Positions 7,007 to 49,375 of a stretch of DNA of 64,000 nt are shown one piece after another (positions within the stretch are counted from its first letter, which is position 1; each line of letters starts with the position of its first letter). The DNA lies in NCBI GenBank assembly GCA_016213105.1, contig JACRBN010000026.1, positions 1-64,000 of the forward strand, in the 5' to 3' direction. The notes beneath the pieces were generated by a model. It did no database searches. It was not told the origin of the DNA and worked only from the letters and a program-made list of their open reading frames with translations. Made by a program: the position numbers and the translations under genes. Origin of the DNA: Chloroflexota bacterium. Lineage in GTDB: Bacteria > Chloroflexota > Anaerolineae > Anaerolineales > Villigracilaceae.

Positions 7007-7041
7007 AACAAATGGCGGCCATTCGGCCGCCGTTTGTTTTT
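7007..7041. terminator. Bidirectional terminator between rpoD and the convergent lipoprotein gene
   Basis: An AAACAAA/TTTGTTT-flanked stem GGCGGCC/GGCCGCC with loop ATTC and a T-rich tail on both strands. It begins right after the rpoD stop, and the opposing gene ends at 7040. Confidence 0.85.
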
Positions 7042-8527
7042 AAGGAAGCCAGAGATATTCGTGCAACCAACAATACTTTACGCGGCACGTATCGATCAAA
7101 ACTGGCTCTCCACTTGGAATGGACACATAATATAGGCGTTCTCTTTTCTCGTATAAAAATGCGCCGGTGGAATCGGGCCGCCACGTGATGTCGGAAAGTT
7201 TTATATCCCATGTTCGCAGCAACTGATCTCTGGAAAACAGTACTAAGCCTTTTGATGTCGGAATCAAGGTGTACATTCCATTGGGCGATGTGCGGGGCGG
7301 ATACTGATACTCGATCTTTTGCCCCAGGTCGGTAACACTTCCATTCTGGTGGATGAGAAAAAGGTGGTCTGCTCCATCGATTGCAAGGAAATCTGCGTTT
7401 GGCTGAGTCTCAACCGGGTAATAGATTTCATCTGTCGCTTTTTGATATGTTCCATCCAAGTCCACCCAATATAAACCTGCTTCTGGTTCAGGCTGTTTTT
7501 CACTTGTTCCGTATGGAAAAGACAGGAACAGGATTTTTGGCCTGTCTGGGTCGGCAAGAAACATGTCGACTGTATAAGGCCAAAACTCCCTGACCTGATT
7601 CGTATCCACATTAATGGATGCAAAACTGTAAAGGGGACCACCATCCCCAGCTCCATGCACAACGTATTCATTATCCGACATCCAACCCAGGCTTCCCCAA
7701 AAGGTTCCTTCGTAGATCGCCTTTGGACTTTGCGGACTTTGGATGTTGGGATCTGCGATGTGAAGGGATGTGCTGGCGTAGATCATCCCGGGATATGAAT
7801 TGACGTAGAGGAGCTTCTTTCCGTTGGGAGCCCATTCAAGAGCGGAGATGTTTGGCAGGTCATCGGTCAATCGACGAATGGTTTGGCTATCGATATCGTA
7901 GATGTACACATCTGAGGATGGCCCATCGATTTGGGCGGTAAAAGCCAATTGGGTGCTATTAGGAGACCATGCCAGGGTCTGGATATAAAAGGACAAGTTG
8001 TTTTGTGCCTGGTAAATTTTGCATTCTACATCGCATGACCATCCCCCCGTATCCTTGATTATGGATGTCATGGGCTCAAGATTGTCTGGAAAGCCAGGGG
8101 CGATCAGGTTTGTCACAGTCCTTGTCGTTTTTTCGGAAAGATTCAGTAAATGCAGGGAAAAGTCATAGGGTTCCGATTCTTTTGTGCCGGTAAAATAAGC
8201 CACCCACTTTCCGTCCGGGGAAACAGATGCTTTCAGGTTATATAGGTGCCCGGGCAGGTGAATTTCTGTCCTGCCCTGACCATCGGCATCCAGTAATGCT
8301 AAATTTGTGTGATCCCATGTGTACATTAGGTACGGCCCCTGAGTATGTAAGGGGGGATATGTCGTTGCTGTTGTGGTCGTTTGCAAGATGGGTGTAGGCG
8401 GAATGCGGGTGGGAAGCGCATATGTTGCAGATGGCGTAGGAGTAATTGGCGTGAGTGGGGTGCATGCCGCCATGTACATGGCCGCCAACAGAAAGGAAAT
8501 CGATCTTGTAAAGGTTGAAAATTTCAT
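7040..8527 (-). CDS. Secreted lipoprotein with TolB/WD40-like beta-propeller
   Basis: A signal peptide with lipobox (LLAAMYMAAC) is followed by a Thr/Pro-rich linker (TPITPTPSATYALPTRIPP). About 430 residues follow with repeated SPDGKWVAYFTG, SPNSTQLAFTA and APNGKKLLYVN blades typical of PD40/TolB-like propellers. It is probably anchored outside the membrane as a binding or scaffold protein; no enzyme motif is visible. ATG 8527 has AAGGGG just upstream and starts exactly at the signal peptide. The frame is open 36 bases further. Base composition is lower in GC than its neighbours. A similar lipoprotein lies at 27884-29242, suggesting a mobile or expanded paralogous family. Confidence 0.8.
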   Translation of the reverse strand: MKFSTFTRSISFLLAAMYMAACTPLTPITPTPSATYALPTRIPPTPILQTTTTATTYPPLHTQGPYLMYTWDHTNLALLDADGQGRTEIHLPGHLYNLKASVSPDGKWVAYFTGTKESEPYDFSLHLLNLSEKTTRTVTNLIAPGFPDNLEPMTSIIKDTGGWSCDVECKIYQAQNNLSFYIQTLAWSPNSTQLAFTAQIDGPSSDVYIYDIDSQTIRRLTDDLPNISALEWAPNGKKLLYVNSYPGMIYASTSLHIADPNIQSPQSPKAIYEGTFWGSLGWMSDNEYVVHGAGDGGPLYSFASINVDTNQVREFWPYTVDMFLADPDRPKILFLSFPYGTSEKQPEPEAGLYWVDLDGTYQKATDEIYYPVETQPNADFLAIDGADHLFLIHQNGSVTDLGQKIEYQYPPRTSPNGMYTLIPTSKGLVLFSRDQLLRTWDIKLSDITWRPDSTGAFLYEKRERLYYVSIPSGEPVLIDTCRVKYCWLHEYLWLP

Positions 8528-8706
8528 AGAGCCCCTTTCTTGAGAATTGCCTTCATTATACACATCTGTTTTATCTTTGCGCTACGAACAATCATAAGCG
8601 GTGTTGATATGTACGCAGGCTTGATATTGCCCCGCCTTTTTTATGTCTAAAATTCCATTATTTGTCAATATGACCATCATCGTCCAGTTTTGTGAAATGT
8701 GACACA

Positions 8707-27229: not shown

Positions 27230-27754
27230 TTATGTTGCAAACCCCTCGGGCATGGACGTGTCATCCACATCACATCCCAGCCTGTGGATATCTTCGGCGC
27301 GGTCGGGATACAGGCTGAGCAGGTGTTCGCGCGTGCCGCCCTCGAACATGCTGGATGTAAAGCCCGGGGCCAGCGTGCAGCCGAACAGGGAGTAGCGTCC
27401 ACCCGCCTGCATGTGGCCCGCCTGCCAGGCGCCCGCAGGGATGACGAACTGCACGGACTGCCCCTGCAGCGGGTCGCTGCCAAGGATAACGTCCCTGCTG
27501 GAGCCATCCGGGTACAGCAGGATCAGCCGCAGCGGGTCGCCACCGTAGAAATGCCAGACCTCGTCGGTGGTTAGCCGGTGAAACAGCGACAGGCTGCGCG
27601 GCTCGTCGCAGTACAGGCCGATCATGGCCGTGCCAATCGGTCCGCCGCCTTCCACCTCCTGCGCCGAGCGGTAGGTGCTGACGAACAGCGTCCCCTCCAC
27701 GGGCAGGGGCTGGAAGTTATAGTACTCGATCAAGGCTTTGACTTCAGGGTGCAT
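27230..27754 (-). CDS. Cupin-like protein of the DUF985 type
   Basis: A single-domain beta-barrel protein of 174 residues with EVWHFYGGDPLRL and VQFVIPAGAWQAG, which are features of the DUF985/YML079w-like cupins. Conserved C-terminal landmarks are YSLFGCTLAPGF and REHLLSLYP. The family is structurally known, but its ligand is not established. The neighbouring truncated copy at 29262-29585 shares the first 77 residues nearly identically, showing a local duplication. It is transcribed leftwards and ends in the repeat region after the desaturase. Confidence 0.85.
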   Translation of the reverse strand: MHPEVKALIEYYNFQPLPVEGTLFVSTYRSAQEVEGGGPIGTAMIGLYCDEPRSLSLFHRLTTDEVWHFYGGDPLRLILLYPDGSSRDVILGSDPLQGQSVQFVIPAGAWQAGHMQAGGRYSLFGCTLAPGFTSSMFEGGTREHLLSLYPDRAEDIHRLGCDVDDTSMPEGFAT

Positions 27755-27883
27755 GGGAGTCCTGTTGATGTTTTTTCATTGCGTGTGAAGGGAAAATTGA
27801 GAAGGCTTGTGAACACTGACAGTCATTTTAACGAGAGGATCACAAAGGACTTTTTGGGAGAAAATCGATGACCGCCTCACCCA

Positions 27884-29242
27884 CTACCAGGTGGCAAACC
27901 AGAGGCGATAATGTTTAATGCGTTTATCGGTTTTGAGATCTGCATTCATTGCTTCTTGAATCTTGGCAGGAAGTGCCAACTTGCTCCATTCTCTTGTTTC
28001 AAGGTCATAAATGACCAACAACGTAGTTTCCTCGAACCTTGAGGCTACAAAGAGAATCTTCTTGCCATCTTGTGAGACATGCCAGTCATCGCTAACCCCA
28101 AATGGGAGTGTTTGCGCTAAAACAAATTTTTCTGGAGTATAGTCAAAAACAAACACCCGACTTGGGGCAGCCTCGGAGGGGAATTTTTGTGTGTAGATGA
28201 TGCGTTGTCCGCCAGACAGCCAATGGATAGGTCCGATCCAATCGTCATTATTTGGATTAGGGATGGATCGCAGAACGTTCGTTTCGAGATTTAATATGTA
28301 TATCAATTCATAGGACGGACCTATGCGATCATCAAAATAGGGCGTCATTGGATCATCGAAATCTTTTATCCCGGCAATGGCAATGGAATTTCCATCTGGA
28401 GATAATGCCAAATCCTCTATCCACCATTCACCCTCCAATATTTGTTGGCCCTTTTGTTCACCCAGAGTTAGCAAATATAAGCCATCGGTTCTGGAAAATA
28501 TCATCTTTTGGCTGTCAGGCGTCCATACGAAGTTCTGGCTCCCTTCAACATCGGTTATTCGAGAGGAGACGATATCCAGGATGTGGATGACGCTTTCTTC
28601 CGTGCCTCTCGAAAATGTGTAATAGGCAAGTTTCTTGCTGTCAGGAGACCAGATCGGAGTAGAGATGGATTCCTGGGCTAGGGGGATGCTGAATGTACTC
28701 TCCATCATTTTTGTTTCGATATTGAGCACATGGATGATCGTTTCGCCCGTACAATTAAAAAAATCGTAAACAGCCACGCAATAGTTTATGGCTTCCTGCC
28801 ATGCAATTCTAGTGCGATCGGGAGAAAGCTGAAGCGAAGTTGGGAATATGTTAATAACTGTTTCCTCTGGATCAATTTGCTGAGTATTTGGATCCTGAAG
28901 AACAATTTGGCGAATCACTTCTGCACCATCTTCAGTGAGGTATCCAGCGCTTACTGCTTGTTTTAAAGATTTTGAATCGGGGATCTCGTATAGTACAACT
29001 GAGCTCCCCATGGGGGTAATTTGCCATAATTGATGGGCAGCATTTCTTGTCCACCAAAAGTATATGATGTCTGGCTCAGGCTGGGGGCTTGGAGTGGATG
29101 TCTGTGTGGGTACAATTATTGGCGTGTGTGTAATTGGGACAGGGGTGAATGGCTTGACAGTGGAAGTTGATGAGTTAACGTTCCCATTGCACCCGCATAA
29201 TAGTGTCAAGACCACAGCAAATAGTATTTGGTTTGTTTTCAT
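27884..29242 (-). CDS. Secreted lipoprotein with TolB/WD40-like beta-propeller
   Basis: Lipobox LTLLCGC after a short signal peptide, then a Thr/Pro-rich linker (PVPITHTPIIVPTQTSTP) and propeller blades with SPDRTRIAWQ, SPDSKKLAYYT, TPDSQKMIFSR, SPDGNSIAIAG and SQDGKKILFVA. It is most likely surface-anchored. It is similar in plan to 7040-8527, though not closely identical. GC content is clearly lower than the surrounding genes. It lies between an intact and a truncated cupin copy, so it may have arrived with or after that duplication. Confidence 0.82.
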   Translation of the reverse strand: MKTNQILFAVVLTLLCGCNGNVNSSTSTVKPFTPVPITHTPIIVPTQTSTPSPQPEPDIIYFWWTRNAAHQLWQITPMGSSVVLYEIPDSKSLKQAVSAGYLTEDGAEVIRQIVLQDPNTQQIDPEETVINIFPTSLQLSPDRTRIAWQEAINYCVAVYDFFNCTGETIIHVLNIETKMMESTFSIPLAQESISTPIWSPDSKKLAYYTFSRGTEESVIHILDIVSSRITDVEGSQNFVWTPDSQKMIFSRTDGLYLLTLGEQKGQQILEGEWWIEDLALSPDGNSIAIAGIKDFDDPMTPYFDDRIGPSYELIYILNLETNVLRSIPNPNNDDWIGPIHWLSGGQRIIYTQKFPSEAAPSRVFVFDYTPEKFVLAQTLPFGVSDDWHVSQDGKKILFVASRFEETTLLVIYDLETREWSKLALPAKIQEAMNADLKTDKRIKHYRLWFATW

Positions 29243-29261
29243 ATGTTGATTCCCAATGAGA

Positions 29262-29585
29262 CTATATTTCTTTCTCCAACGAAACCGTCAAAATGCACTG
29301 TGATCCGCCTCGTAAGATCGAGTCTTCAACCGTTACATGGATGTTATCCTGGCTCAATCGCAGCGGGTCGCCGCCGTAGAAATGCCAGACCTCGTCGGTT
29401 GTCAGCCGATGGAACAGTGACAGGCTGTGCGGCTCGTCGCAGTACAGGCCGATCATGGCCGTACCGACGGGACCGCCGCCTTCCACCTCCTGCGCCGAGC
29501 GATAAGTGCTGACGAACAGCGTCCCCTCCACGGGCAGGGGTTGGAAATGGTAATGTTTGATCAAGGCTTTGACTTCTGGGTGCAT
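29262..29585 (-). pseudogene. Truncated duplicate of the DUF985 cupin
   Basis: The first 77 residues are nearly identical to the intact cupin at 27230-27754, and the DNA is visibly alike over about 230 bases. Homology stops abruptly after GGDPLRL. The remaining 30 residues (SQDNIHVTVEDSILRGG onward) are unrelated and AT-rich. The second half of the barrel is missing, so it is probably non-functional, although the frame is intact and could still make a 107-residue protein. Confidence 0.8.
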
Positions 29586-29612
29586 TAGCCTCCTAGAAAA
29601 GTAAGTGCATTT

Positions 29613-30512
29613 TTAGTATCGATAGAATGGCCAGGTAGCCACAAAATACTTACCATCGCAATCTTTCACAACTTTAACTTGAAATTGTGAAATCATCGTA
29701 CTCTCTTTACGATCACCCTCACTATATGGCCTTTGATAAAGGCTTCCATCTTCTCTTTGGTACTCGACAGTGAAATGGAATTCCATTGGGGAAATCTGCT
29801 CCTTGTTGATAATACGAGACACCCTTAAAGTACATTTATAGTCGTTGAATTCACAAGCTGTTTGAAGCAAGGCCGGATAATCTTCTACATTTATCTTGGG
29901 ATTCCACATAATGATTCCCCCATAGCCACCAATGAATATCTTTGAAGCTTCCTCATATTTTTTGCTATACAGAAGATCATAGAAACTGATAAGGGTGTTC
30001 TGGGCCTGCATCATTGATGCTTTGTCATTAATGGGTGTGGAAGTTGAGGGATAAGCTTCCTGTGTGATGGAAGACATTGGAAAATCGGTCGGATCTAAGT
30101 GAATGTCCGTGTCATGGATGGCTGGAACAAATGCCCATCCCTGTTGATTGTTGCATAGATCGACCAATATCCAATTCACACGCTTATCCAACACATCAAA
30201 CATAACAATGGGGTCTTCGCGTACAGGTATGGACTGTATGGCATCATATTCACACCCAGGACCCTGACGAATTGCAAAGGCTGGAGTCTGGTCCAGATAA
30301 ACAATGGAACCAGTTGCATTTGAATGACAACTGGACTGTGGTGTCGATGTAGAAGGCAGCGTGGAAGTCGCAGATACTTTAGGTTGTACAGTGGGTGTGT
30401 CAGGAATGACACTTTCTTGAACAGTTGGCAATGTTGTAGGCGGAATGGAATAGTTTGAACTACAGGCAGTGATGACTGATAGACAAAACAGGGATACAAG
30501 AAATTTTTTCAA
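29613..30512 (-). CDS. Lipoprotein with SH3-like domain
   Basis: A signal peptide KKFLVSLFCLSVITAC with lipobox is followed by a Ser/Thr/Pro linker. A segment at about residues 70-135 resembles bacterial SH3-like repeats (YLDQTPAFAIRQGPGCEYDAI...NQQGWAF separated by one loop). The C-terminal 150 residues have no recognisable family. I chose TTG 30512 because GGAGG lies 6 bases upstream and this begins exactly at the positively charged signal-peptide start. The TTG overlaps the stop codon of the methyltransferase by 4 bases (TTGA), so translation is coupled. GC content is lower than upstream genes. Confidence 0.72.
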   Translation of the reverse strand: MKKFLVSLFCLSVITACSSNYSIPPTTLPTVQESVIPDTPTVQPKVSATSTLPSTSTPQSSCHSNATGSIVYLDQTPAFAIRQGPGCEYDAIQSIPVREDPIVMFDVLDKRVNWILVDLCNNQQGWAFVPAIHDTDIHLDPTDFPMSSITQEAYPSTSTPINDKASMMQAQNTLISFYDLLYSKKYEEASKIFIGGYGGIIMWNPKINVEDYPALLQTACEFNDYKCTLRVSRIINKEQISPMEFHFTVEYQREDGSLYQRPYSEGDRKESTMISQFQVKVVKDCDGKYFVATWPFYRY

Positions 30513-31192
30513 TTTTTCTCCTCCTTCTTCCATACCAGCGAATAACGCCAGAAGAAATGACGCGTTACCCTGGCCTTGGGCAGCGAGGTGCAGGCCCGCA
30601 GTACCTGTGCCAGCGTGGGATACACATCCGTGCGGCCGTGTTCTTCCCAGGCGGCGCGCACTTCTTCGGGCTCGCCCAGATGTCCTGTCTTGAGCAGTTT
30701 GAGGATGGGGTTGAGCGGCATGGCCAGCGCCCCCACGGCGAAATCTGCGAGGCTTTCAGCTTTGAGCAGGTCCAGCACCAGCAGGGAGCCGTTGGGTTGC
30801 AGCAGGTCGCGCAGTTGGGTGAGGATGCTTTCAAGCGGAAGATGATGCAGGGTGGCGATGGATGCGATACAGCCGAAGCTGCGGGCAGAGAAGTCGTAGT
30901 TCAGCACATCTGCCACCTGGAAGTCGATGTTGGGATACGCCTGGGAACGTTCGCGCGCGATCTCGATCATGCGCGGCGACAGGTCCAGGGCCAGTACACG
31001 TCGATGGCGCTGCGCCAGCAGGCGGGAGAATCCGCCCGTGCCGCAGCCGATCTCCAGCGCATCCGCGTCGCTGGCGGCGGGCAGTTGCTTCAAGAGAAAG
31101 GCATGATAATGGCTGTTGTGATCCCAGCCTTCGTTCGAGAATTCGGCCAGGCGGTCGAAGTCATGTTGGATTTTGGAGGATGGAGTGTTCAT
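30509..31192 (-). CDS. Class I SAM-dependent methyltransferase
   Basis: Motif I is ALEIGCGTGGFSRLL, motif II is VLALDLSPRMIEIA, and the post-motif LHHLPLESILTQLRDLLQPNGSLLVLD is split by loops, typical of the Methyltransf_11/UbiE-like fold. The N-terminus has GWDHNSHYHAFLLKQLP, frequent in small-molecule methyltransferases of this type. The substrate is unknown. It overlaps the DinB gene upstream by 4 bases and the lipoprotein downstream by 4 bases, so the three form one coupled unit. Confidence 0.87.
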   Translation of the reverse strand: MNTPSSKIQHDFDRLAEFSNEGWDHNSHYHAFLLKQLPAASDADALEIGCGTGGFSRLLAQRHRRVLALDLSPRMIEIARERSQAYPNIDFQVADVLNYDFSARSFGCIASIATLHHLPLESILTQLRDLLQPNGSLLVLDLLKAESLADFAVGALAMPLNPILKLLKTGHLGEPEEVRAAWEEHGRTDVYPTLAQVLRACTSLPKARVTRHFFWRYSLVWKKEEKN

Positions 31193-46199: not shown

Positions 46200-47138
46200 C
46201 TAAATGGGGTTGAGGATGTAATAGTAGTAATAGATGGCGGCGACGGCAATGGACAGGACACACAGCCCAACCAGCAGCATGACGCCCAGGATGATCCATT
46301 GCCCGACGGTCATGCCCATGTACAGTTTCCTGCGGGCGGGCAAGGAGTCAGAGTCGTTGGCGGTGGAGCGCAGCAGGCCGGGCGGCAGGCTTTCGGACGC
46401 GCCCTCGTCTTCATCGAAGGCAAAGGAGATGTCCTCCTGGCTGCCCGTGTTTTTGGGGGAGGGGGAGGCGTCGAAGATGGCCCTGGCGCGCGAGGCGGGT
46501 TTCTGCTGGGCAGGCTGGGGCGCGGCGGCCACGGCGGTCTCATCCACCCTGGGGAGGGTGATGCGCTCCGCCAGGTCGTAGACCTGTTCGTTGCGCAGGA
46601 TCGAGCGGGTTTGCAGCACCGTGGAGGCAAACTGGGCAATCGCGTCGCTTTTGACCACGCGGATGATCGGGCGCAGGCTTTCCATGTTGAGGCCCGGCTC
46701 GGCGGCCATCAAGACCGGTTCGACCCGCCCGGGGATGGCGATCTGCTGGATCTCGAAATATTTCTGGGTGGCGCGCGCCAGCCGTTCGGTGATACTGATC
46801 AGGTTGCGCTGCGCGGGCGCGGCGCGGCCCTGGTCGATCTTGTTCCACTGGTCGCCCTTGGCCTCGTAGAAGCCCTTGAGATGGGTGACATAGATGACGA
46901 ATACCCCACTGGGAGTAAGCAGGATCATCGGCACGATGACTTCGCTGCCCGGCAGGTTGAAGTTACGGATGAGCACGTACCCTTTTTCGAACAGGCGGTC
47001 CAGCTGGGCGATCACCGCCTTCTGGGCAGACTGTTCGGGGTACCAACTCGGGCCGTATTTCAACGTCGCCTGGGCGCGGCCAATTAGATCGATTTCTCCC
47101 TTTTCGTTTTGGAACGGGGTTTTATCTATGATTCTCAT
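46200..47138 (-). CDS. NERD-like domain protein with C-terminal membrane anchor
   Basis: The N-terminal 130 residues resemble the nuclease-related domain (NERD): FEKGYVLIRNFNLPG and LTPSGVFVIYVTHLKGFYE, which parallel the GVFVIEVK strand of the family, though the catalytic Glu and Lys appear replaced by Tyr and Thr. A middle region and a disordered Ala/Pro/Asp/Glu-rich linker follow. The last 40 residues hold one hydrophobic helix (WIILGVMLLVGLCVLSIAV) and a YYYYY tail. It is likely not an active nuclease. It is co-directional with the glycosyltransferase gene. Confidence 0.6.
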   Translation of the reverse strand: MRIIDKTPFQNEKGEIDLIGRAQATLKYGPSWYPEQSAQKAVIAQLDRLFEKGYVLIRNFNLPGSEVIVPMILLTPSGVFVIYVTHLKGFYEAKGDQWNKIDQGRAAPAQRNLISITERLARATQKYFEIQQIAIPGRVEPVLMAAEPGLNMESLRPIIRVVKSDAIAQFASTVLQTRSILRNEQVYDLAERITLPRVDETAVAAAPQPAQQKPASRARAIFDASPSPKNTGSQEDISFAFDEDEGASESLPPGLLRSTANDSDSLPARRKLYMGMTVGQWIILGVMLLVGLCVLSIAVAAIYYYYYILNPI

Positions 47139-47464: not shown

Positions 47465-47534
47465 CAGCCCTCCATCCGCTATTTTAACATGAAAGCTGCC
47501 GGGATTTCTGCCTGGCGACTCTATGAATCATTTA

Positions 47535-47563
47535 TTGACAAAAAAGATCACATGTTCTAAAAT
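47535..47563 (+). promoter_or_regulatory. Consensus promoter upstream of the AT-rich module
   Basis: TTGACA (47535-47540), 17 bases, TAAAAT (47558-47563). A small inverted repeat GTCTG/CAGAC follows at 47581-47597 and could be an operator or a leader hairpin. Confidence 0.7.
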
Positions 47564-47636
47564 AAATGTGCAGTGACTCAGTCTGCCCTCCTCAGACAAA
47601 GACGTTGCAATTTTGTAAAGTGTTAACATTTGAGCG

Positions 47637-47645
47637 TGTTATAAT
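47637..47645 (+). promoter_or_regulatory. Extended -10 promoter directly before the AT-rich module
   Basis: TG, one base, then TATAAT (47640-47645), 38 bases before the start ATG of the 308-residue gene. A Shine-Dalgarno (AGGAGG) follows at 47673-47678. Confidence 0.65.
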
Positions 47646-47683
47646 ATTTTAAATGTCGTTTTTTATCACAGCTAGGAGGAAAT

Positions 47684-48610
47684 ATGCAACAGAATACAAT
47701 TGAAAGAGAAATTCACTTTTATCGTGTTGATACTGGATTTGACCCAAGTGGTAGTCCAAAATCTTTTAACCCAGTCCCTGTATTAAAACATATAGAAAAA
47801 TTGAAATTTAAAGATGGTAATAATTACTGGAACGATGATGGTAAAACTGTTGCATGTTGGGTATATGGCACGGATATGCCTTGTAAAATAGCTTTAGGAA
47901 ATATTCGCAGGAATGATTTTCCGCTTATTGAAAATCAAGGAGAGTTAACTCCCTTGGAGATTCCTGAAAAAGCGGGCTTAACTGAACAGACTCATATCAT
48001 GTTTTTTGAGGATAACATTGTTGGATGTGATATTAATTTTTATGGTCCTAGGATAACAAAACTATCATATTATCTTGCTGAAAAAGCAGTCGGTGTTGCT
48101 CCAGAGATATTGAATTTCAATCCTATTTTACGGAAAGATATTTATCAGCAACTTGAAAGATTAAAATTTTTGCGAATGATAAGATTGAAATTACGGTCTT
48201 CTCATTCAGATGCTATTTCTAGTATTGATGATGGTTTAGGGGAAGCGTTGAAGGCTACATATATGGCAGTGTCAGGTGATGGCGATCTTGACATGGATAT
48301 TATATTAAAAGCTGCCAAACGCTCGAAGGGTTGGTTAGCCGATCACCTGAATGATGTAGTTAAACGATTGTATAAAAAGCCAGATATTAGATATGATGTT
48401 GAGAAACTTGTAATCAAAGGCTATGATGCCGAAAAACAAAAAAATGTTACACTCGATTTATTAAGTGATAAGTTGATTATTAAAAGAGAGATTTTGAGGA
48501 TGGGCTATAAGTCTAAAGGACTCAATCCGAACTCTGCTTTTAGAGCTATTGCATCGGCTTATGAAGAATTAAAAGATGAGCTAAAGCAGTCGCCGAGTAT
48601 GGTTTTATGA
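47684..48610 (+). CDS. Uncharacterised 308-residue soluble protein of an AT-rich two-gene module
   Basis: No confident family. The N-terminal half (about 1-135) looks like an alpha/beta domain with EIHFYRVDTGFDP, TVACWVYGTDMPCKIALG and HIMFFEDNIVGCDINFYGP. The middle is helical (YQQLERLKFLRMIRLKLRSS). The C-terminal part has VEKLVIKGYDAEKQKNVTLDL and a final helix. No membrane helix or signal peptide. AT-rich codon use contrasts sharply with all neighbours and suggests transfer. AGGAGG precedes the ATG, and the stop is 1 base before the membrane-protein gene. The layout (soluble protein plus small membrane protein beside a tRNA) is like known phage-defence pairs, but the function is unknown. 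Confidence 0.85.
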   Translation: MQQNTIEREIHFYRVDTGFDPSGSPKSFNPVPVLKHIEKLKFKDGNNYWNDDGKTVACWVYGTDMPCKIALGNIRRNDFPLIENQGELTPLEIPEKAGLTEQTHIMFFEDNIVGCDINFYGPRITKLSYYLAEKAVGVAPEILNFNPILRKDIYQQLERLKFLRMIRLKLRSSHSDAISSIDDGLGEALKATYMAVSGDGDLDMDIILKAAKRSKGWLADHLNDVVKRLYKKPDIRYDVEKLVIKGYDAEKQKNVTLDLLSDKLIIKREILRMGYKSKGLNPNSAFRAIASAYEELKDELKQSPSMVL

Positions 48611-48611
48611 C

Positions 48612-49103
48612 ATGAGAACAATCTTGAAATACTGGAGCGCACATTTTCTTACACTTGAAATGGTGTTGGCAGTTGTTTGCTCCCTATTGTTCGTTGTGTG
48701 GTCTGAAACTATAAATAATGGTGTTTTTGTATCACAATTCTTTGGTGATGGTCGTCAGGAACTATATAATGCATTAGCTACGATATTTGGGTCGATGCTT
48801 GGTTTTTCTATCACGGCTGTTTCTATTGTTTTGGGGTACGCACAAAATGAAAAACTTGAGATTTTGAGGATAAGTAAACATTATTCTGTATTATGGGATG
48901 TGTTTAAATCCACAATAAAAGTATTAGCAGCTTCAACAGTTATGGCCCTTGTGGGTTTGATAGGTGATAAAGATGCTAATCCTTCTAATGTGATTTTATA
49001 TTTAAATTTGTTTCTTTCTATGCTCTGTGCTTTTAGAATATCAAGAACGATATGGGTTCTGGAATATATTATTGCAATCGTAGCTACAAAAAAACGCACC
49101 TGA
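48612..49103 (+). CDS. Four-helix membrane protein, partner of the 308-residue protein
   Basis: 163 residues with about four hydrophobic helices (residues 12-30, 52-76, 103-120 and 126-158). The second has GSMLGFSITAVSIVLGYAQN, a pattern seen in small membrane proteins of unknown function. It starts 1 base after the upstream stop, so the pair is translationally coupled. The same AT-rich composition supports joint transfer. The frame ends in KKRT right after a run of seven A; with one A fewer, the reading would continue for 13 codons to a TGA and then 22 more. The C-terminus may therefore be truncated. Confidence 0.8.
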   Translation: MRTILKYWSAHFLTLEMVLAVVCSLLFVVWSETINNGVFVSQFFGDGRQELYNALATIFGSMLGFSITAVSIVLGYAQNEKLEILRISKHYSVLWDVFKSTIKVLAASTVMALVGLIGDKDANPSNVILYLNLFLSMLCAFRISRTIWVLEYIIAIVATKKRT

Positions 49104-49203
49104 AGATGTACTTACGGCTTCTGGTTTAGGTTGAGTAATTAAAGATGTAATTAAATTAATAGTGAATGAAGGAAAGGGTCTAAATGATTTAGCTATTTTC
49201 TGA
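49104..49203 (+). pseudogene. Decayed 3' extension of the membrane-protein gene
   Basis: In the frame reached by removing one A from the A7 run at 49088-49094, the sequence reads NAPEDVLTASGLG, a TGA, then VIKDVIKLIVNEGKGLNDLA and a stop. It is AT-rich and coding-like. It may be the lost C-terminal tail, or a small separate remnant. Confidence 0.4.
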
Positions 49204-49236
49204 TAAACAAGAACTGAACATCTTTATTCCAAAATG

Positions 49237-49269
49237 AACACCGCCATATCAAAGATTGGCGGTGTTTTT
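49237..49269. terminator. Terminator between the AT-rich module and tRNA-Pro
   Basis: AACACCGCCA pairs with TGGCGGTGTT around a 10-base loop, with TTTTT on the plus strand and a weaker T-rich tail on the minus strand. It can end both the module and the tRNA transcript. Confidence 0.85.
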
Positions 49270-49272
49270 GTG

Positions 49273-49347
49273 TCGGGGCGAAAGGATTCGAACCTTCGAC
49301 CTCTTGCTCCCAAAGCAAGCGCGCTAACCGGACTGCGCCACGCCCCG
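49273..49347 (-). tRNA. tRNA-Pro (UGG)
   Basis: A cloverleaf can be folded on the minus strand. The 7-base-pair acceptor CGGGGCG/CGCCCCG has discriminator A. The D arm contains GGTTAGCGC-type loop sequence. The anticodon stem CTTGC/GCAAG encloses TTTGGGA with anticodon TGG. The T arm has GGTTCGAATCC. CCA is not encoded. Its 3' end faces the AT-rich two-gene module. Confidence 0.95.
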
Positions 49348-49375
49348 AATGGACCGGGCGAGTATAATGCGAAGG

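Follow-up and report, generated by a model that had tools for sequence, protein, structure and literature searches.

A putative RexAB-type gene pair inserted beside tRNA-Pro(UGG) in a Chloroflexota chromosome

The window analysed here, a stretch of 64,000 nucleotides from a Chloroflexota bacterium (GCA_016213105.1, contig JACRBN010000026.1), contains an AT-rich pair of genes next to tRNA-Pro(UGG), the gene of a proline transfer RNA (tRNA). By profile comparison and structural modelling, the pair appears to be a distant relative of RexA/RexB of phage lambda, which are known to block rival phages, and is carried by a chromosome without a recognisable prophage. By analogy with described systems, we consider it likely to be a RexAB-type abortive-infection operon acquired by the Chloroflexota chromosome. 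The RexA-like fold of the first protein, the four-helix form of its partner, the strict pairing of the two genes and their insertion where relatives have an empty site were all computed here. An earlier note on the window, made from the sequence alone, had described a two-gene module of a 308-residue soluble protein and a four-helix membrane protein, 1 base apart; the open reading frames (ORFs; gap of 1 nt in the ORF list), the four hydrophobic segments and the helical model bear this out. The family, which the note had called unknown, came out as RexA/RexB-like in structure and profile searches. The two genes are as follows.

47684-48610, plus strand: rexA-like gene, ORF of 308 amino acids (aa), soluble; predicted DNA-binding sensor
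48612-49103, plus strand: rexB-like gene, ORF of 163 aa, four-helix membrane protein; predicted effector

The soluble protein and its predicted RexA-like fold

The structure of the soluble protein was modelled from A7, a nine-row alignment of RexA-like proteins that leaves out the member from Geoglobus ahangari pleomorphic virus 1 (GahPV1) and three later-found family members. The model reached a mean predicted local distance difference test score (pLDDT) of 77.3 and a predicted template modelling score (pTM) of 0.74. Among 350,542 chains of the PDB, the chains of lambda RexA (8TWQ) ranked first and second (Foldseek E 5.9e-8 and 3.5e-7; probability 1.00). A second structural comparison matched 8TWQ at Z 13.8 over 158 of the 308 residues at 3.4 Å, low-confidence stretches being omitted, and the next entry stood at 7.3. 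Behind lambda RexA came kinetochore Chl4/CENP-N chains at Z values up to 7.3, followed by RdgC at 4.4, and RdgC and TATA-binding-protein-like chains all matched below Z 5. RdgC and the kinetochore IML3-CHL4 are also named as structural relatives of lambda RexA in the RexA structure paper (PMC11077077). Among viral structure models, only two uncharacterised siphovirus proteins were found at E<=0.001 (1.8e-14 and 1.1e-12).

Profile comparison points in the same direction. The hhalign alignment of A7 with four lambda-type RexA proteins gave E 1.9e-6 (probability 89.6, 143 columns), with a score of 49.3 against 28.1 for the best of 600 shuffles and 14.0 for the reversed control, and the cross pairs (A7 with RexB, and the membrane-protein alignment A8 with RexA) scored about 14. 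The PADLOC RexA model matched the window protein at 5e-5 over 85 residues (106-190), and PHROG searches returned a RexA-like family at 0.022, besides two families without a known function at 1.3e-7 and 2.2e-5. Of the positions common with lambda RexA, G114, G121 and P122 are each kept in eight of the nine A7 rows (not in L003), P147 in 8/9, R150 in 7/9, and D258 and L260 in all nine. R219, a residue through which lambda RexA contacts DNA, corresponds to K245 in the alignment, a position that is basic in 7/9 rows; in lambda RexA, the double change of R219 and K221 abolishes DNA binding (PMC11077077). Homology of the soluble protein to RexA is well supported by profiles and model, and by analogy the protein is a probable DNA-binding sensor.

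The C-terminal half is matched by DUF6731 (PF20505), at 17 bits in the window protein, which is below the cut-off, and at 27.6 bits in the GahPV1 protein, just above the cut-off of 27. DUF6731 is a family of unknown function, whose tie to RexA is suggested here solely through the RexA-like proteins of this family. No DUF6731 match was found in 61 relatives, own genome included, so this model does not detect the present branch. A housekeeping family was considered and rejected, as Pfam matches of the pair were sub-threshold only (DUF6731, DUF2254, TgpA_N) and NCBIfam had no match for the window proteins. Two matches in a PDB sequence search (E 0.18 and 0.76) were taken as chance, and a plasmid search gave no match. 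When the window protein alone was used for peptide-pattern scans, neither viral contigs nor genome contigs yielded a relative, and the scan with the L004 protein found only L004 itself.

The membrane protein as a probable RexB homologue

Four hydrophobic segments were found in the membrane protein of the window and in 10 of 10 complete partner proteins counted, and its structure model consists of four long helices (mean pLDDT 86.0). The PADLOC RexB model matched five of nine family members at E<=0.1, window included, the best at 2.3e-4. Furthermore, hhalign comparison of A8 with three lambda-type RexB proteins gave E 1.5e-4 with only 51 columns aligned. The score of 31.6 exceeds the best of 600 shuffles (27.6) by a small margin, and the reversed control scored 13.5. 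These profile signals are favourable but weak, and they make homology of the membrane protein to RexB probable, short of proof.

Insertion of the gene pair beside tRNA-Pro(UGG)

The insertion site was delimited with the following features.

47518-49261, equally 47513-49256, no strand: inserted segment, from BLASTN against the congeneric genome G668, where the left flank aligns to 47517 and the right from 49257
49272-49347, minus strand: tRNA-Pro(UGG), conserved neighbour of the insertion site
46200-47138, minus strand: NERD-domain gene (Pfam NERD, 1.5e-6), left neighbour and synteny anchor

The fraction of guanine and cytosine (GC) of the gene pair is 0.348, compared with 0.597 over the remaining 62,580 bases of the window, and the lowest 1-kb bin of the whole window (47501-48500, at 0.343) falls here, so the contrast in AT-richness described in the earlier note stands. 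The NERD gene occurs in 37/41 family genomes, own included, and 16 of the 36 other family loci were fetched for comparison. In 14 of these 16, tRNA-Pro(UGG) adjoins the NERD gene; of the other two, L053 lies close to a contig end, and no tRNA was seen at L060. The distance from the start of the NERD gene to the 3' end of the tRNA is 2133 nt in the window versus 112-750 nt in the 14 relatives, including G668, where it measures 374 nt and the site is empty. All 14 spacings are too short to hold the gene pair. The two-gene unit is therefore an insertion that is absent from relatives at the site beside tRNA-Pro(UGG). The earlier note had allowed that the pair might belong to a conserved core of similar base composition at this tRNA locus; the comparison found otherwise, in spacing as well as in GC.

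Being encoded on the minus strand, the tRNA has its 3' end towards the gene pair, as the earlier note had it; the insert does not abut the tRNA but stops 10-15 nt short of it, without contact. Integration by the usual tRNA route, also proposed there, was not borne out. A repeat search found no copy of the tRNA 3' end at the far insert boundary, so the classical tRNA-att scar is absent, and the insert holds no integrase-sized ORF apart from the two genes, the only ones to reach 100 aa. A standard tRNA-att integrative element was rejected on these grounds, the boundaries sharing just the 5-bp TGGCG (47513-47517 and 49257-49261). Since the corresponding stretch in G668, read by eye, could form a hairpin right behind the tRNA, it was apparently the terminator region, rather than the tRNA, that received the insertion. 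The unit is acquired cargo, probably with an anti-phage role, in line with the note's idea of mobile cargo; the empty site in relatives, the patchy distribution, and homologues on viral contigs and among defence genes support this.

Pairing and spread of the homologues

The homologues were compared over 13 non-redundant loci (the window, L001, L003, L004, L010, L012, L013, L014, L015, L016, L071, L072 and L073), the near-duplicate L011 of L010 being excluded. The partner gene lies directly downstream of the rexA-like gene in all 12 loci with continuing sequence, window included; in L071, the sequence ends 47 nt past the rexA-like gene, and in L014 the partner gene is cut by the contig end. Over 11 pairs, a set that omits L071 and L016 and takes L014 with its partial partner, identity in the first protein co-varies with identity in the second (r 0.877, with none of 5000 permutations as high). 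Judged from the sequences, this co-variation indicates a shared history and by itself is not a sign of interaction. At L016:10889-11401 (same as L007), the rexB-like frame is broken beside an open rexA-like gene, which may reflect decay or an assembly error.

The gene pair is rare. Matches were found in 2/396 genomes of the class (single protein), 4/150 of the family (A7), 3/301 of the phylum (A1) and 3/400 of the phylum (A7, five candidates scored per genome), own genome included in each case, and in 2/41 genomes of the genus of G751; the samples behind these counts overlap. The named hosts are metagenome-assembled genomes of Chloroflexi, Dehalococcoidia, Dormibacterota and Gemmatimonadetes, together with Acetobacteraceae AT-5844. 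Two distinct IMG/VR contigs carry the pair, on one of them between apparent tail genes and a lysin (roles judged by eye). The member at L010:9980-10921, on an IMG/VR contig, also matches the PADLOC candidate PDC-M67A (2.4e-5), possibly another group of RexA-like proteins. The archaeal pleolipovirus GahPV1 (L001:6004-7468, BK065157.1) carries a RexA-like/RexB-like pair as gp18/gp19, both annotated as hypothetical in its record. Genes annotated as winged helix-turn-helix regulators, an AAA ATPase and a RelE/ParE-type toxin are found near gp18/gp19.

Defence genes were found close to three of the homologous pairs. Matches to other PADLOC defence models lie near L013, L014 and L015 (type IIG and type II restriction-modification, oligonucleotide cyclase, DrmD-like and RmrA-like), a raw count and not a measure of enrichment. 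The earlier note had asked whether such pairs cluster in defence islands; the window copy does not lie in one, since none of its ten flanking proteins matched PADLOC at 1e-4. The GC of the pair is below that of the surroundings in 10/10 loci compared, and the first gene of L071 is likewise lower; the two genes of L072 and those of L073 differ little from the local mean.

One other locus recalls the setting in the window. In G719 (L071:7219-9094), the order is tRNA-Pro(GGG), a 122-aa gene, a small ORF and then the rexA-like gene. Among six congeneric loci of G719, the 122-aa gene is kept in two, and tRNA-SeC follows further on in three; the spot behind tRNA-Pro(GGG) may thus be variable. Recurrence of insertion behind tRNA-Pro is only suggestive, because the G719 contig ends just after the rexA-like gene. 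No tRNA was found near L001, L003, L009, L012-L016, L072 or L073, and at L010 a tRNA-Val lies about 1.8 kb away, so tRNA adjacency is not general.

Expression signals and surroundings of the window pair

The earlier note had credited the pair with two promoters and a terminator of its own, and predicted signals of each kind were located, together with a ribosome-binding motif.

47535-47563, plus strand: promoter-like TTGACA-17-TAAAAT, 11/12 against consensus (consensus match only), within the insert
47637-47645, plus strand: possible second promoter with extended -10 TGTTATAAT, without a good -35, suggested from reading by eye
47674-47679, plus strand: Shine-Dalgarno-like AGGAGG, 4 nt upstream of the rexA-like ATG, read by eye
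49236-49269, plus strand: terminator-like hairpin (stem 49236-49267) and T run, fold -18.4 kcal/mol

Twelve promoter-like sites were counted in the region versus 6.7 in shuffles, so AT-richness by itself gives several. The hairpin was not listed in the terminator scan of the region, probably because its stem is interrupted, and the right insert boundary falls within its 3' arm. Given these predicted promoter and terminator signals, the pair, in contrast to lambda rexAB, need not rely on the promoter of a prophage repressor. Downstream of the rexB-like stop (49104-49201), another frame runs for some 38 codons and includes one stop. This frame (49086-49201) was considered as a C-terminal extension of the membrane protein and taken as chance, because it contains a stop and is not seen in the closest homologue, whose protein ends where the window protein ends.

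Nine of the ten flanking proteins could be assigned to Pfam families at 1e-5, such as RNase HII, glycosyltransferase, NERD domain, esterase and epimerase, and one had no match; no repressor or integrase is among these families. Elsewhere in the window, 27230-30533 is AT-rich, the GC of its 1-kb bins falling as low as 0.43, and holds two lipoprotein-like ORFs. It resembles a duplicated unit: 27230-27754 and 29262-29585 are copies of one small protein, the second shorter, each beside a lipoprotein-like ORF. Another AT-rich ORF (7040-8563, 507 aa, GC 0.48) with a lipoprotein-like start lies in GC-rich surroundings.

Proposed mechanism and alternative explanations

Sensing, triggering and the abortion of infection are proposed here by analogy with the lambda, CarolAnn, Sbash and Pseudomonas putida systems. 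Probably as a dimer, the RexA-like protein would bind DNA or DNA-protein intermediates that arise in phage replication. The bound protein would change shape and activate the RexB-like protein, which may then open or damage the inner membrane, halting growth and aborting the infection. In P. putida, an excess of RexA leads to RexB-dependent suppression of growth together with membrane damage; the damage was observed in a small subpopulation, and no RexA-RexB binding was seen in two-hybrid tests (PMC12894663).

Several results weigh against a RexAB-type operon. For the soluble protein, the Pfam RexA model (PF15969) gave no match to the window protein at E<=1, where the sub-threshold DUF6731 match was the sole Pfam hit. 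The PADLOC RexA model was matched by only two of nine family members, and in the window protein over residues 106-190 only. The structural match at Z 13.8 is partial, and whole-chain superposition on lambda RexA returned TM-scores of 0.39/0.43 with a root-mean-square deviation of 16 Å over 315 columns; the low whole-chain score is tentatively ascribed to domain orientation. K221, the other residue of lambda RexA in contact with DNA, falls on Y247, a position that is basic in just 5/9 A7 rows. For the membrane protein, the model had no PDB match at E<=0.001, and the PADLOC RexB match of the window protein alone is weak (E 0.05). The location of the window pair outside a defence island counts on the same side.

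A pair that is RexAB-like by descent could also work with reversed roles, the soluble protein being the antiviral effector and the membrane protein holding it inactive, as proposed for gp30/gp31 of mycobacteriophage Butters (PMC7542560; discussion of PMC12894663). The window sequence does not separate the two modes. We regard reversed roles as unlikely, since three of the five described systems (RexABpp of P. putida, CarolAnn and Sbash) need both proteins, with RexB as the effector as in lambda (PMC12894663).

A role outside defence, as a relic or as a regulator such as a lysogeny-switch modulator from a decayed prophage, is decidedly improbable. Lambda RexA does bias the CI/Cro switch as well, stabilising the lytic state independently of RexB (PMC11077077), and G751 and G762 have the pair between the same neighbours at near-average GC, which looks old and settled. 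However, both genes of the window are open, the insert holds no further ORF of at least 100 aa, the flanking Pfam assignments include neither repressor nor integrase, and three homologues lie among defence genes. That the pair was ancestral at the site and lost in relatives, instead of inserted in the window genome, would fit the homologues in three other genomes of the family; those homologues have different neighbours, matches are confined to four of 150 family genomes, the NERD-tRNA distance is small in each of the 14 relatives compared, and the segment is AT-rich, which leaves loss a very slim chance. The analogy of the earlier note with Kiwa (membrane protein KwaA and KwaB) can be practically dismissed, as just the general layout of a soluble and a four-helix membrane protein is common to both, neither protein has a Kiwa model in PADLOC at E<=1, and fold and profile evidence point to Rex.

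Comparison with known systems

A RexAB-type operon in this setting would extend the range reported for such systems. Five RexAB-like systems have been described, all in phages or prophages, according to PMC12894663, and a 2022 DefenseFinder survey found RexAB in Proteobacteria only, mostly on prophages, and cautioned about limited detection (PMC9090908). No report of the pair in Chloroflexota or in an archaeal virus was among the literature matches listed, a search with subscription journals and preprints mostly outside its scope, and 'RexA' occurs 0 times in a term search of the main text of PMC10919331, which lists the GahPV1 provirus. The present branch, with members on chromosomes of Chloroflexota and others, next to defence genes and in an archaeal virus, offers examples free of the lysogeny switch, which allow a direct test of whether exclusion, not switch control, was the original function. 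A7 and A8 can serve as seed alignments for better detection models. A wider view is conceivable, if doubtful: RexAB may be an old abortive-infection module common to bacterial chromosomes, tailed phages and archaeal viruses, with the lambda version as one derived branch placed under the lysogeny repressor. Free-standing pairs that have their own promoter and move, as cassettes of 1.7 kb, into terminator regions downstream of tRNA genes would then represent the more general kind.

Like lambda RexA/RexB (8TWQ), the window pair consists of adjacent genes, the soluble RexA fold first and a four-pass membrane protein second, and it shares with lambda RexA the core positions given above (G114, G121-P122, P147, R150, D258, L260) and has a basic residue where lambda has R219. 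It differs in its low identity (11% across the structural alignment) and in its predicted own promoter and terminator in place of the CI repressor promoter. Furthermore, no repressor or prophage was seen beside it among the ten flanking proteins compared with Pfam (one without match), unlike lambda and the typical described cases. RexABpp of P. putida (PP_5643-5644; Sci Rep 2026, PMC12894663) is alike by description, with a RexA-like DNA-binding protein and a four-pass membrane protein that acts as a growth-arresting, RexA-triggered effector, whereas it lies in a cryptic prophage, downstream of a CI-like repressor. The actinobacteriophage pairs Sbash gp30/31, CarolAnn gp44/43 and Butters gp30/31 have the same two-protein layout by description (PMC12894663, PMC11077077, PMC7542560), and these are phage-encoded, unlike the window pair.

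Escherichia coli RdgC (2OWL), the structural relative of lambda RexA mentioned above, is also listed for the window model, at Z 4.4 only; unlike the window pair, it is a single-gene recombination-associated protein. We know of no membrane partner of RdgC. GahPV1 gp18/gp19 show 27.2% and 28.3% identity to the window proteins, with the same order and adjacency, in an archaeal pleolipovirus instead of a bacterial chromosome. In conclusion, the window pair is a divergent RexAB branch in a new setting, not a new kind of system.

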